Source: Weeksellaceae bacterium
GTDB taxonomy: Bacteria > Bacteroidota > Bacteroidia > Flavobacteriales > Weeksellaceae
Direction: 5' to 3'
Length of the DNA: 64,000 nucleotides
Assembly: GCA_019459455.1 (NCBI GenBank)
Contig: JAIBEX010000009.1
Coordinates: 248,001 to 312,000 of the forward strand
The notes under the pieces were generated by a model, which had not been told where the DNA came from, ran no database searches, and worked only from the letters and a program-made list of their open reading frames with translations. The translations under genes were made by a program, and so were the position numbers. Positions within the stretch are counted from its first letter, which is position 1. Every line of letters starts with the position of its first letter. Shown here piece by piece: positions 14,935-17,937 of this stretch.

Positions 14935-15459
14935 TTATCGTTTAATTTTATCCTTACCTGTAAGTTTTCTGCCGGATATTTTTGCTTTTAAAAATTTTTT
15001 GCGGTCTTTCACCAATTTCAACGAGCATTCGTCAAAACATAACTGTTCGCTTTCCCGCAAAAATCTTAAAGCATTCTTCAAGCTCCCTCTTTTTTCAGAA
15101 AGCAAAGAACGTAAATTCAGGATTGTGAACCTGTCTATTCCCTTGATTCGGATTGCGAAATTAATCAGTCTTTCTGCCTCCATATAATCTTCATTGCTGA
15201 TGAGACAACTGATATAGTATTGTGGTGTATTGATGTTGTTTACATCGTACATCATCGCCTCCGCAAAATATTCCAGCGCCTGTTCATAATCTTTCAGGAC
15301 TTCTGAATATATTCTTCCCATCAGGGTTAGCGCATCGGCATCCTCCGGATCATACGACAGCGCGTAATTAAGGGCTTCCAGACAATCAGCTATGTTGTAG
15401 GTATAGTAATCCAGCGCTTCAAAATAATATTTGCTTTTAGTTAAGTCCATTTCTGTCAT
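14935..15459 (-). CDS. TPR-like helical-repeat protein, third gene of the rtcB-prfH operon
   Basis: A 174-residue soluble protein made of helical repeats. The clearest TPR unit reads ADALTLMGRIYSEVLKDYEQ, with the usual A/L/G/Y spacing, and further degenerate repeats follow. The C-terminus is very basic (KAKISGRKLTGKDKIKR). The start is only 2 bases after the prfH stop, so it is translated with prfH and rtcB. I do not know a named function. The operon position and basic tail suggest an accessory to ribosome rescue or RNA repair, perhaps RNA- or ribosome-binding; this is inference. Confidence 0.75.
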   Translation of the reverse strand: MTEMDLTKSKYYFEALDYYTYNIADCLEALNYALSYDPEDADALTLMGRIYSEVLKDYEQALEYFAEAMMYDVNNINTPQYYISCLISNEDYMEAERLINFAIRIKGIDRFTILNLRSLLSEKRGSLKNALRFLRESEQLCFDECSLKLVKDRKKFLKAKISGRKLTGKDKIKR

Positions 15460-15461
15460 TT

Positions 15462-16136
15462 TTAAATTCGTTTTTCAGTTGGTTTCTTTCTTTTTTTGAA
15501 AGATTTCTGCCGATCATTCTTTTTAAAATCGATTCCCGCAAATGTTCGGATCGGGTTTCCCCTTTGCACACTCAAATGATTGTTCCATGTGGCCTGCATC
15601 CTTTTTTCCAATTGCTGAATATGAAATTCCATTACTTTCTCTTTTAATCTGCCGACTGAAAGTTTTTTATTTTCCAGCTGCGAACGGGAATCCTGTACGA
15701 AAACACTTTGTCCGGTTTTCAGATAGGTTGCACGGACTGCCGTGTTCACTTTATTCACGTTCTGTCCGCCGCTTCCCTGACTTCTGGCCGTTTGAAACTG
15801 AATTTCTTTTTCATTGAACTCTATCTTTTCCAAACCCTCCAGTTCAAAAACTCCGATAAACCAATTGCTTCTTTTGTGCAATTTTCTGAATCTGCTTTTC
15901 CCAATCCAAAGAATGCTTCCAAGCCAGTTTTCCAGGAATTCAGCGACTCCTTTGCCTTTTAAAAGTAAGGTAGCAGATTTTAAAGTCAGATTTTCATCGC
16001 CATTTTCTCGGTGGATAATTTCGTAACCGATTTTATTATTTTTTGCTTCCTCAAGAAAGACCTTCAGAACTTTGGCGACTACCCATTGACATTCTAAAGG
16101 TCCTCTTCCTGAGGTTATTTGTATTAATTTTTCCAT
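15462..16136 (-). CDS. prfH: PrfH, release-factor-like ribosome rescue protein
   Basis: A 224-residue class I release-factor homologue. The GGQ motif that triggers peptidyl-tRNA hydrolysis is at residues 123-125 in GSGGQNVNK, and a basic C-terminal tail follows (KKNDRQKSFKKRKKPTEKR). It lacks the RF1/RF2 N-terminal helical domain and the canonical codon-reading tripeptide of RF1. prfH genes are known to sit next to rtcB, and PrfH with RtcB2 has been reported to rescue and repair ribosomes cut in the 16S decoding centre. Here it lies 11 bases after rtcB. Confidence 0.9.
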   Translation of the reverse strand: MEKLIQITSGRGPLECQWVVAKVLKVFLEEAKNNKIGYEIIHRENGDENLTLKSATLLLKGKGVAEFLENWLGSILWIGKSRFRKLHKRSNWFIGVFELEGLEKIEFNEKEIQFQTARSQGSGGQNVNKVNTAVRATYLKTGQSVFVQDSRSQLENKKLSVGRLKEKVMEFHIQQLEKRMQATWNNHLSVQRGNPIRTFAGIDFKKNDRQKSFKKRKKPTEKRI

Positions 16137-16147
16137 TATTTTAATTG

Positions 16148-17539
16148 CTATTTATCCATCCTCACAATTCGAGGTTGAAAAGTCCCGAGAATATCCACCA
16201 ATTCACTTTGTGTATTCATAACTTCATTGATGTCCTTGTACGCCATTGGTGCTTCTTCGGCATTTCCACCCATCAACGTGACATTTTTGAGTTTTAATTC
16301 TTTCCTGATGTCATTTTGAGTGAAACGGTTTCTGCATTCTCCTCTGGAAAAAGCTCTTCCTGCTCCGTGAGAAGCCGAGTTCAGTGAATCGGGATTTCCT
16401 TTTCCGCGGACGATGAACCCTTTTGCCGTCATCGATCCCGGAATCATTCCCAATTCATTTTCACTAGCGGGAGTCGCACCTTTTCTGTGAACAATCATTT
16501 CTTTACCGTTGTGGATTTCCTTCCATGCAAAATTGTGGTGGTTTTCGATTTTAGCCTTTACTCTTCCTCCAACTGCCTTTACCAATCTTCTGTGAATATC
16601 GTCGTGACAGGCAGAAGCATAATCCCCTGCGAGGTTCATCGCTGTCCAGTATTCCAGACCGAGATGCGTGTTCAAATCCAGCCAGGCGAAGTTTTGAGCT
16701 TCTTTTGGCAACGGACATTGTTCAGTCGCAATTTTTGTATAATATTGAGCGATCTCTGCTCCCAATCCACGAGAACCGCTGTGCGAAAGGATCCCAAGGT
16801 ATTTTCCTTTTGGAAGTCCTATTTGACCGTCTTCTTCGGAAATCTCCACTTCCCCGAATTCTACAAAGTGATTTCCACCGCCGGAACTTCCCATTTGTTT
16901 CATGGCTTTTCCTTTTAATCTTCTCAAAACCGGAATCATATCGAACGTATCTCTATCGAATATTTCGTGATCGACGTGTGATTTGTGCGTCTCATTCATT
17001 CCAAATTTTGTATGTTCGGCAAGCGCTTTTTCGTATTTATCCCTTGCTCCGTCCAGATATGAAACCGGTATATCCAAAATACTCAGGCTCATTCTGCAAC
17101 CAATGTCCATCCCGACTCCGTAAGGAATTACGGCATTCTCTACGGCGAGAACACCGCCAATCGGAAGTCCGTAACCGCTGTGTGCATCCGGCATCAAAGC
17201 TCCCTGTGTTGAAATCGGGAGTTTCAATGCAGTATACAGCTGGTTTTTCGCTTCTTCTGAAATATTATTTCCGAAAATCCGGAAAGATGCACGGTTTGCA
17301 TTGAGCATTCTTTTTTCTGTTTTCTTTGCCATAAGCAAAGCTTCCGCAATTTGGCCAAAGGTTAAATCTTCCTCAAAATTTTCAGGATTTTGCTGGATTT
17401 CCTTTAGAAGAGATTTTACAAAGTGAATGTTTTTGGTTGCAAAATTTCTTTTCATGACTTCCAAAGCGATGTTGACGCTCTGATTATTTGGATAGCCTAG
17501 TTTTAGTATATCTTTTCCTTTTAGTTTTAAATTTCCCAT
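16148..17539 (-). CDS. rtcB: RtcB RNA ligase
   Basis: A 463-residue GTP- and Mn-dependent ligase that joins 3'-phosphate (or 2',3'-cyclic phosphate) and 5'-OH RNA ends. The guanylylated His is H391 in HGAGRAFSRG. Metal-site segments are GMDIGC (D145, C148), GGGNHF (H224), SHSGSRG (H253) and HNFAW (H335). No rtcA or RtcR regulator is present; instead the gene is followed by prfH, as in RtcB2-PrfH pairs. No good TAnnTTTG box lies in the 200 bases before its ATG, so it may depend on read-through from the leader promoter at 17908-17937. Confidence 0.95.
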   Translation of the reverse strand: MGNLKLKGKDILKLGYPNNQSVNIALEVMKRNFATKNIHFVKSLLKEIQQNPENFEEDLTFGQIAEALLMAKKTEKRMLNANRASFRIFGNNISEEAKNQLYTALKLPISTQGALMPDAHSGYGLPIGGVLAVENAVIPYGVGMDIGCRMSLSILDIPVSYLDGARDKYEKALAEHTKFGMNETHKSHVDHEIFDRDTFDMIPVLRRLKGKAMKQMGSSGGGNHFVEFGEVEISEEDGQIGLPKGKYLGILSHSGSRGLGAEIAQYYTKIATEQCPLPKEAQNFAWLDLNTHLGLEYWTAMNLAGDYASACHDDIHRRLVKAVGGRVKAKIENHHNFAWKEIHNGKEMIVHRKGATPASENELGMIPGSMTAKGFIVRGKGNPDSLNSASHGAGRAFSRGECRNRFTQNDIRKELKLKNVTLMGGNAEEAPMAYKDINEVMNTQSELVDILGTFQPRIVRMDK

Positions 17540-17582: not shown

Positions 17583-17729
17583 CATTCTGGCGCCGAATAT
17601 TTTTTCTACTATAATCTAGTTGATTGTATAAGGAAACTCGTTTCTCGTTTTGCAATGGAATTCTGCGAAAGCGGGAAATGGCTCCTCATTAAATTTAATT
17701 TCGGGAAATTTTTGAATTGAAATTTAGAC

Positions 17730-17762
17730 AAGAAAAAACCCGAAATCTTACGACTCCGGGTT
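17730..17762 (-). terminator. Intrinsic terminator / possible attenuator in the rtcB leader
   Basis: On the minus strand an AACCCG / CGGGTT stem (17757-17762 with 17737-17742), extendable by three weaker pairs, encloses a loop of about 8 bases and runs into TTTTTTCTTG. It lies 24 bases after the stop codon of the 25-codon leader ORF and 190 bases before rtcB. As the only strong promoter upstream is at 17908-17937, transcripts reaching rtcB would have to read through it. Confidence 0.75.
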
Positions 17763-17786
17763 GTGATATTTCATTATACTGTTGTT

Positions 17787-17864
17787 CTAAGAAGGTACCA
17801 AACCACGAAGCCTCGCCTTTGCAAAAGGCAATCCTGTTAATGAATGTTGATTAAATTTGAACAT
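17787..17864 (-). CDS. 25-residue leader ORF upstream of rtcB-prfH
   Basis: An ATG-to-TAG frame of 26 codons, too short for routine gene calling. The peptide has Lys at positions 3 and 16 and Arg at 18 and 20. Residues 16-18 read K-A-R and 18-20 read R-L-R, overlapping +X+ motifs. Codons 12-17 include a perfect hairpin (GCCTTT / AAAGGC, 17815-17829). A promoter with both boxes lies 44-73 bases upstream of the ATG and an intrinsic terminator follows the stop. The layout looks like a leader peptide with attenuation, but whether it is translated is unknown; it could also be a small RNA with a chance ORF. Confidence 0.5.
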   Translation of the reverse strand: MFKFNQHSLTGLPFAKARLRGLVPS

Positions 17865-17907
17865 TGCTTCGTTGTTTTTTTTGTTGGTGGAACTTGATTT
17901 TCAGGTG

Positions 17908-17937
17908 CAAATATAGAATAAATTCCGGAACTGCAAA
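17908..17937 (-). promoter_or_regulatory. Promoter of the rtcB leader
   Basis: On the minus strand TTTG (17937-17934) is followed after 18 bases by TATATTTG (17915-17908). This matches both the -33 and -7 boxes of the Bacteroidota housekeeping sigma factor with normal spacing. Expected transcription start is near 17902, 38 bases before the leader ATG. Confidence 0.75.

Follow-up and report, generated by a model that had tools for sequence, protein, structure and literature searches.

A candidate ribosome-controlled transcription attenuator ahead of rtcB-prfH in Flavobacteriales

The analysed stretch of DNA (64,000 nucleotides, referred to as the window) contains on its minus strand an rtcB gene followed by prfH (Table 1). 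In the original prediction, a promoter, an ORF of 25 codons and a terminator had been placed ahead of rtcB on this strand, with about 190 bases between terminator and gene. All of these elements were found where they had been placed, and the start of rtcB (17539) is located ~190 nt downstream of the terminator. A gene for a TPR-repeat protein (window 14935-15459, minus strand) begins two bases after prfH and probably shares the operon with rtcB-prfH.

Table 1. Features of the leader and the downstream genes, and a candidate leader ORF of E. coli
Feature	Position	Strand	Remarks
Bacteroidota-type promoter	17908..17937	minus	-33 box TTTG, 17937-17934; -7 box TATATTTG, 17915-17908
Segment 1 (ACGAAGC; core CGAAGC)	17866..17872	minus	just 5' of leader start codon; partner of segment 2; 1:2 covariation
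Leader ORF, 25 codons, MFKFNQHSLTGLPFAKARLRGLVPS	17787..17864	minus	open in relatives
Hairpin within ORF (GCCTTTTGCAAAGGC)	17815..17829	minus	predicted fold between segments 1 and 2
Segment 2 (GGCTTCGTGGTTTGG; also GGCUUCGuGGUU)	17798..17812	minus	ORF end; partner of segment 1 or 3
Segment 3 (AACCCGGAGTC)	17752..17762	minus	terminator 5' arm; antiterminator partner
Segment 4 and U tract (TTTCGGGTTTTTT)	17733..17745	minus	terminator 3' arm; 3:4 covariation
Terminator stem	17762-17737	minus	followed by U tract; whole element to 17733
rtcB (RNA ligase RtcB family)	16148..17539	minus	PF01139, E 2e-81; regulated gene
prfH (release factor H)	15462..16136	minus	TIGR03072, 209.9 bits vs cut-off 166.65; operon gene 2
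E. coli ORF MTNPLSMTLCRPFQD	L210:2679-2726 (14EC020); L209:2740-2787 (MG1655)		candidate leader peptide

A scan for sigma-70 promoters was at chance level (6 sites vs 4.7 expected), and the Bacteroidota motif was therefore used instead. Both boxes of the promoter in the window fit the pattern TTTG / TAnnTTTG. All 133 relatives have TAnnTTTG within the 100 nt that precede the leader ATG, most of them at a distance of 49-51 nt. Between terminator and rtcB it was found in none of the 40 relatives with a locatable rtcB start. As far as this motif can tell, the claim that no other good promoter precedes rtcB was borne out, and a separate rtcB promoter downstream of the terminator, which would speak against attenuation, was not found in these intervals. 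The only recognisable promoter predicted for rtcB-prfH is located upstream of the leader.

The leader RNA folds better than shuffled sequences (z -2.8) and contains four segments. Segment 1 abuts the leader start codon in all leaders, 2-7 nt before it. Segment 2 consists of GCUUCG plus an outer stretch and is complementary to segments 1 and 3; segment 3 reads AACCCGgAGUC as RNA. Judged from the sequence, the layout is that of a classic four-segment attenuator, in which a 2:3 antiterminator would exclude the 3:4 terminator. No clear antiterminator pairing had been recognised in the original prediction; this has to be corrected, as an antiterminator is present in the pairing of segment 2 with segment 3. 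The pairs GCC:GGC of the hairpin within the ORF are replaced by ACC:GGT in relatives. A search of the window against the Rfam families gave no match at gathering score, and only chance-level matches at E values up to 10.

In a first DNA search, the leader was detected in 8 of 59 relatives (own genome counted), upstream of rtcB with or without a methylmalonyl-CoA mutase gene nearby. A covariance model was built from eight sequences. Of 321 family genomes it matched 208, almost all of them a single time. Where model matches lay on the opposite strand, they reflect the near-palindromic terminator and were left out of alignment A6. Of the same 321 genomes, 211 contain PrfH, and 201 contain both leader and PrfH (Fisher p about 1e-62, ancestry uncorrected). 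Seven genomes had a leader match without PrfH. Six of these were examined (G072, G102, G152, G212, G341 and G008), and the operon was decayed or PrfH was missing; the match in the seventh (G308) was weak (E 0.009). Most of the PrfH genomes without a model match carry a divergent leader, several of them with an extra gene before rtcB. In G102 (L075, 1200-2721), tandem fragments of the rtcB 3' end follow an intact rtcB, and prfH is missing.

From this family, which we take to be the Weeksellaceae, 134 distinct leaders were extracted. Outside the family, the same leader build was present in 15 of 20 operons examined (L190-L197, L199-L202, L204-L206), either before rtcB or before an additional gene that precedes rtcB. 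The second large family is presumably the Flavobacteriaceae, and a Flavobacteriaceae MAG (L214) carries the leader. The comparison indicates that the leader has been conserved within the Flavobacteriales, and its retention in different genera rules out a chance origin.

Covariation was found in all three helices (1:2, 2:3 and 3:4). Variants of the 1:2 helix include GAAGC:GCUUC, GAAGAA:UUCUUC, GAAGAC:GUCUUC (L199), GAAGUAAA:UUUACUUC (L202) and CUGAAG:CUUCAG (L205). The outer part of 2:3 varies in step with the terminator arm, as in GGUUU:AAACC, GCUUU:AAAGC (L091), GGCUU:AAGCC (L194), GAUUAC:GUAAUC (L200) and GGACUU:AAGUCC (L205). In 23 divergent representatives, cognate duplexes were more stable than partner-swapped ones, with -10.5 vs -8.2 kcal/mol for 1:2, -14.7 vs -11.6 kcal/mol for 2:3 and -17.0 vs -13.0 kcal/mol for 3:4. 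For each helix, 0 of 20000 permutations reached the cognate value (ancestry uncorrected). In this set, the wrong stretch was picked as segment 3 of L201, which weakens rather than strengthens the partner-swap tests. The same result was obtained for 1:2 and 2:3 with 68 unique family combinations (0 of 5000 permutations each, ancestry uncorrected). In an alignment of 83 rows, 1:2 and 3:4 together had 51 cells changed on both sides vs 8.7 in shuffles, and 2:3 had 23 vs 5.5. The number of 2:3 pairs with changes on both sides was 3 and did not exceed that of shuffles; the 1:2/3:4 model, and not 2:3, had guided this alignment. Pairing dropped from >90% to <60% when the partner was slid by 1-3 columns.

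The leader could also be read chiefly as a gene for a trans-acting sRNA or small protein, or as the 3' end of the mutase gene, with rtcB expressed separately. Termination would yield a discrete RNA of ~165 nt, the leader follows a methylmalonyl-CoA mutase gene in the window, and G008 keeps the leader although rtcB-prfH is lost; there it directly precedes the TPR gene that elsewhere follows prfH. However, the leader persists in L005-L007 and L011, where no mutase match was found upstream of it, and the hairpin was rejected as a mutase 3' end on this ground. The leader tracks rtcB-prfH across genera and has its own promoter motif, with none after it, and neither an sRNA nor a plain 3' end would have a use for a covarying antiterminator. 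Separate expression of this kind is considered very improbable.

Lack of conservation of the ORF or the terminator in relatives would argue against attenuation. The terminator is kept and covaries, and the ORF was open in 134 of 134 leaders, with 25-27 codons in 132 of them and 19 codons in two (L066 and L087), in which the stop codon precedes segment 2. Shuffled bodies of the 23 representatives were expected to yield 5.3 open ORFs. A pN/pS value of 0.57 was calculated for codons 2-12, and 0.61 and 0.97 for the wrong frames. Selection on the leader peptide appears to be weak, so that the argument for translation of the ORF is based mostly on the conservation of its length and frame. Phe2 was present in 134 of 134 leaders, a count that reflects an extraction pattern requiring Phe2; it is usual, not universal, in other families. 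The peptide end VHS is kept as well (pN/pS 0.24 in codons 23-25). The conservation of Phe2 and VHS is outside the explanation offered by an attenuator and was counted against this reading.

Folding under constraint was carried out with transcripts cut after segment 3 and with the ribosome footprint made unavailable. Such partial transcripts were used because the full-length transcript, folded to minimum energy, gave the terminator in most cases, also when a ribosome was placed at the start. All 133 leaders formed 2:3 when the footprint lay at the start codon or at codon 6. When it lay at the stop codon, 1:2 formed in 83, neither helix in 8, and 2:3 still in 42. Without a ribosome, 2:3 was thermodynamically preferred in transcripts up to segment 3 (126 of 133), and termination of an untranslated leader would thus require that 1:2 forms first. 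The distance from the ATG to the segment 2 core is 53-60 nt. If a footprint of ~15 nt on each side is assumed, a ribosome with its P site up to about codon 12-13 should leave segment 2 free.

These data point to the following mechanism. Transcription would begin ahead of the leader ORF and produce a nascent RNA with the four segments. If the ORF is translated to its end, the ribosome would cover segment 2, the 3:4 terminator would form and transcription would stop before rtcB. A ribosome stalled within about the first 12 codons would mask segment 1, or segment 1 would be unable to close over it; the free segment 2 could then pair with the emerging segment 3, no terminator would form, and rtcB-prfH would be transcribed. 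The position of the ribosome would decide, and the peptide itself would be mostly irrelevant. The signal would likely be ribosomes that initiate but fail to elongate, especially those cut in the 16S decoding centre, and ribosome-targeting drugs probably trigger the switch as well. We infer translation as the input, the polarity in which an early stall means expression, and the physiological signal. On the sequence evidence, the leader is very probably a ribosome-controlled transcription attenuator of rtcB-prfH. The core idea of the original prediction, a ribosome-sensing attenuator, was strongly supported by the comparison; its mechanistic detail was not.

That detail concerned the +X+ motifs K-A-R and R-L-R, at which macrolide-dependent arrest would switch the operon on. 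KAR and RLR are present in the peptide of the window, and RLR in 101 of 134 leader peptides. However, a role in macrolide stalling was not supported, and the motifs are not conserved. RLR is encoded by segment 2, and at this place divergent leaders have RFG, CFG, LQD or ASR. Segment 2 is read in another frame in L007 and L009 (RFG, CFG) and in the third frame in L206 (ASR), and it lies past the stop codon in the two 19-codon leaders; CUUCG occurs in all three ORF frames among the leaders. Thus, the RNA and not the peptide is conserved there, and peptide-specific arrest was rejected because of the three frames. An arrest motif of the ErmDL type is neither conserved in the peptide nor placed to free the antiterminator, since a stall on KAR/RLR would place the ribosome on segment 2 and thus promote termination. 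Macrolide-dependent arrest at these motifs is extremely unlikely, and an early stall is the likelier signal.

The folds might instead be switched by a small molecule or a protein, e.g. RtcB acting on its own leader. The strong conservation of the alternative structures together with weak peptide selection would fit such a switch, but the leader lacks an Rfam family match, the ORF has kept its frame and length despite its varying sequence (5.3 open ORFs were expected from the shuffled bodies of the 23 representatives), segment 1 abuts the start codon throughout, and the parallel from Pseudomonas (see below) depends on leader translation. Control by a ligand in place of the translating ribosome is regarded as improbable.

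The proposed ribosome-controlled switch resembles several known systems. In Pseudomonas aeruginosa, armZ (PA5471) encodes an RtcB-like protein, adjoins prfH (PA5470) and is controlled by the leader PA5471.1 (PMC12057347, PMC13041342). It is proposed that full translation of PA5471.1 leads to a 3:4 terminator; ribosomes stalled early in the ORF lead to expression, and activation also follows from an amber codon at position 3 (PMC12057347, PMC13041342). Both systems share a short leader ORF before an operon of an rtcB-like gene and prfH, and, as predicted for Flavobacteriales, expression upon an early stall. This parallel, which has experimental support in Pseudomonas, is one of layout and logic. 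The Flavobacteriales leader differs in its ORF of 25-27 codons, its CGAAG/CUUCG segments and the lack of a recognisable Shine-Dalgarno sequence; derepression of the MexXY efflux pump by ArmZ is a feature of Pseudomonas. With amino-acid attenuators of the trp type, the leader shares four segments, mutually exclusive 1:2, 2:3 and 3:4 pairings and the proposed deciding role of ribosome position. In contrast to these, it lacks a stretch of codons for a single amino acid, and the stall window would lie at the beginning of the ORF; it would thus report a general failure of elongation. In the attenuators of bmrCD, vmlR and mef/mel, disturbed translation of a short ORF likewise blocks termination before a ribosome-protecting gene, whereas the present leader has no conserved drug-arrest peptide motif and would control genes that repair and rescue ribosomes.

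The RtcB2-PrfH operon of E. coli ATCC25922 has the same two genes in the same order and protects E. coli against cleavage of 16S rRNA by colicin E3; that study reported no leader regulation (PMC9223846). In vitro, ribosomes cut by colicin E3 initiate almost normally but cease to elongate within about eight codons (PMC2615495); they would therefore stop in the part of the leader where the antiterminator forms. Colicin-type damage may be the signal read by the leader, and drugs that slow elongation should act alike. Tobramycin strongly raises prfH in P. aeruginosa PA14 (listed value 491.76; PMC8120321). For Flavobacterium psychrophilum, leader-peptide attenuation has been suggested for amino-acid operons (PMC9723704). 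A leader of the present type before rtcB-prfH of Bacteroidota was not described in the largely non-subscription literature searched. The kind of switch is known from Pseudomonas, and the Bacteroidota version is apparently undescribed. For the question how bacteria notice cut ribosomes, the leader would provide a concrete and widely conserved candidate sensor with the damaged machine itself as the reader; such regulation is little described in the phylum. The antibiotic response of armZ in Pseudomonas would then be an instance of a more general rule for rtcB-prfH operons. The model makes predictions that can be tested by single-base changes.

Candidate leaders were also found beyond Flavobacteriales. 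Upstream of rtcB of Fulvivirga sediminis (L217), an unrelated-looking leader ORF MMVQKIHIALLTGMLAA is followed by a terminator, and GACCGGG within the ORF pairs with the terminator arm CCCGGUC. Folding under constraint gave the antiterminator when a ribosome was placed at the start, and the terminator when it was placed at the stop. In Chitinophaga (L207, L212) and Edaphocola (L215), short ORFs with a hairpin at the stop codon precede rtcB. In E. coli, a different short ORF (MTNPLSMTLCRPFQD), which is not annotated and has a strong Shine-Dalgarno sequence, is located upstream of rtcB2-prfH and followed by a T-rich stretch; the upstream region contains a CUGCAAGG:CUUUGCAG pairing. Tentatively, and with rather less than even confidence, attenuation by stalled or damaged ribosomes could be a general switch of rtcB2-prfH that was invented several times, with the cell reading damage as the early failure of a sentinel ORF. 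The separate inventions would be the Flavobacteriales sequence family, Fulvivirga and PA5471.1, with Chitinophaga, Edaphocola and E. coli as possible further cases.

Two additional elements were observed between leader and rtcB. A GGAGC-ATTTCCCGCT motif is located 3' of the terminator (window 17667-17685, minus strand) and at the same place in relatives; it was rejected as a dispersed repeat, since its own genome contains one exact and one mismatched copy. A conserved gene of ~245-260 codons without a Pfam or NCBIfam family stands between leader and rtcB in several Flavobacteriales (L191:511-1269, L213:1637-2368 and others) and directly before rtcB in Mucilaginibacter, and is possibly a third part of the rtcB-prfH system.
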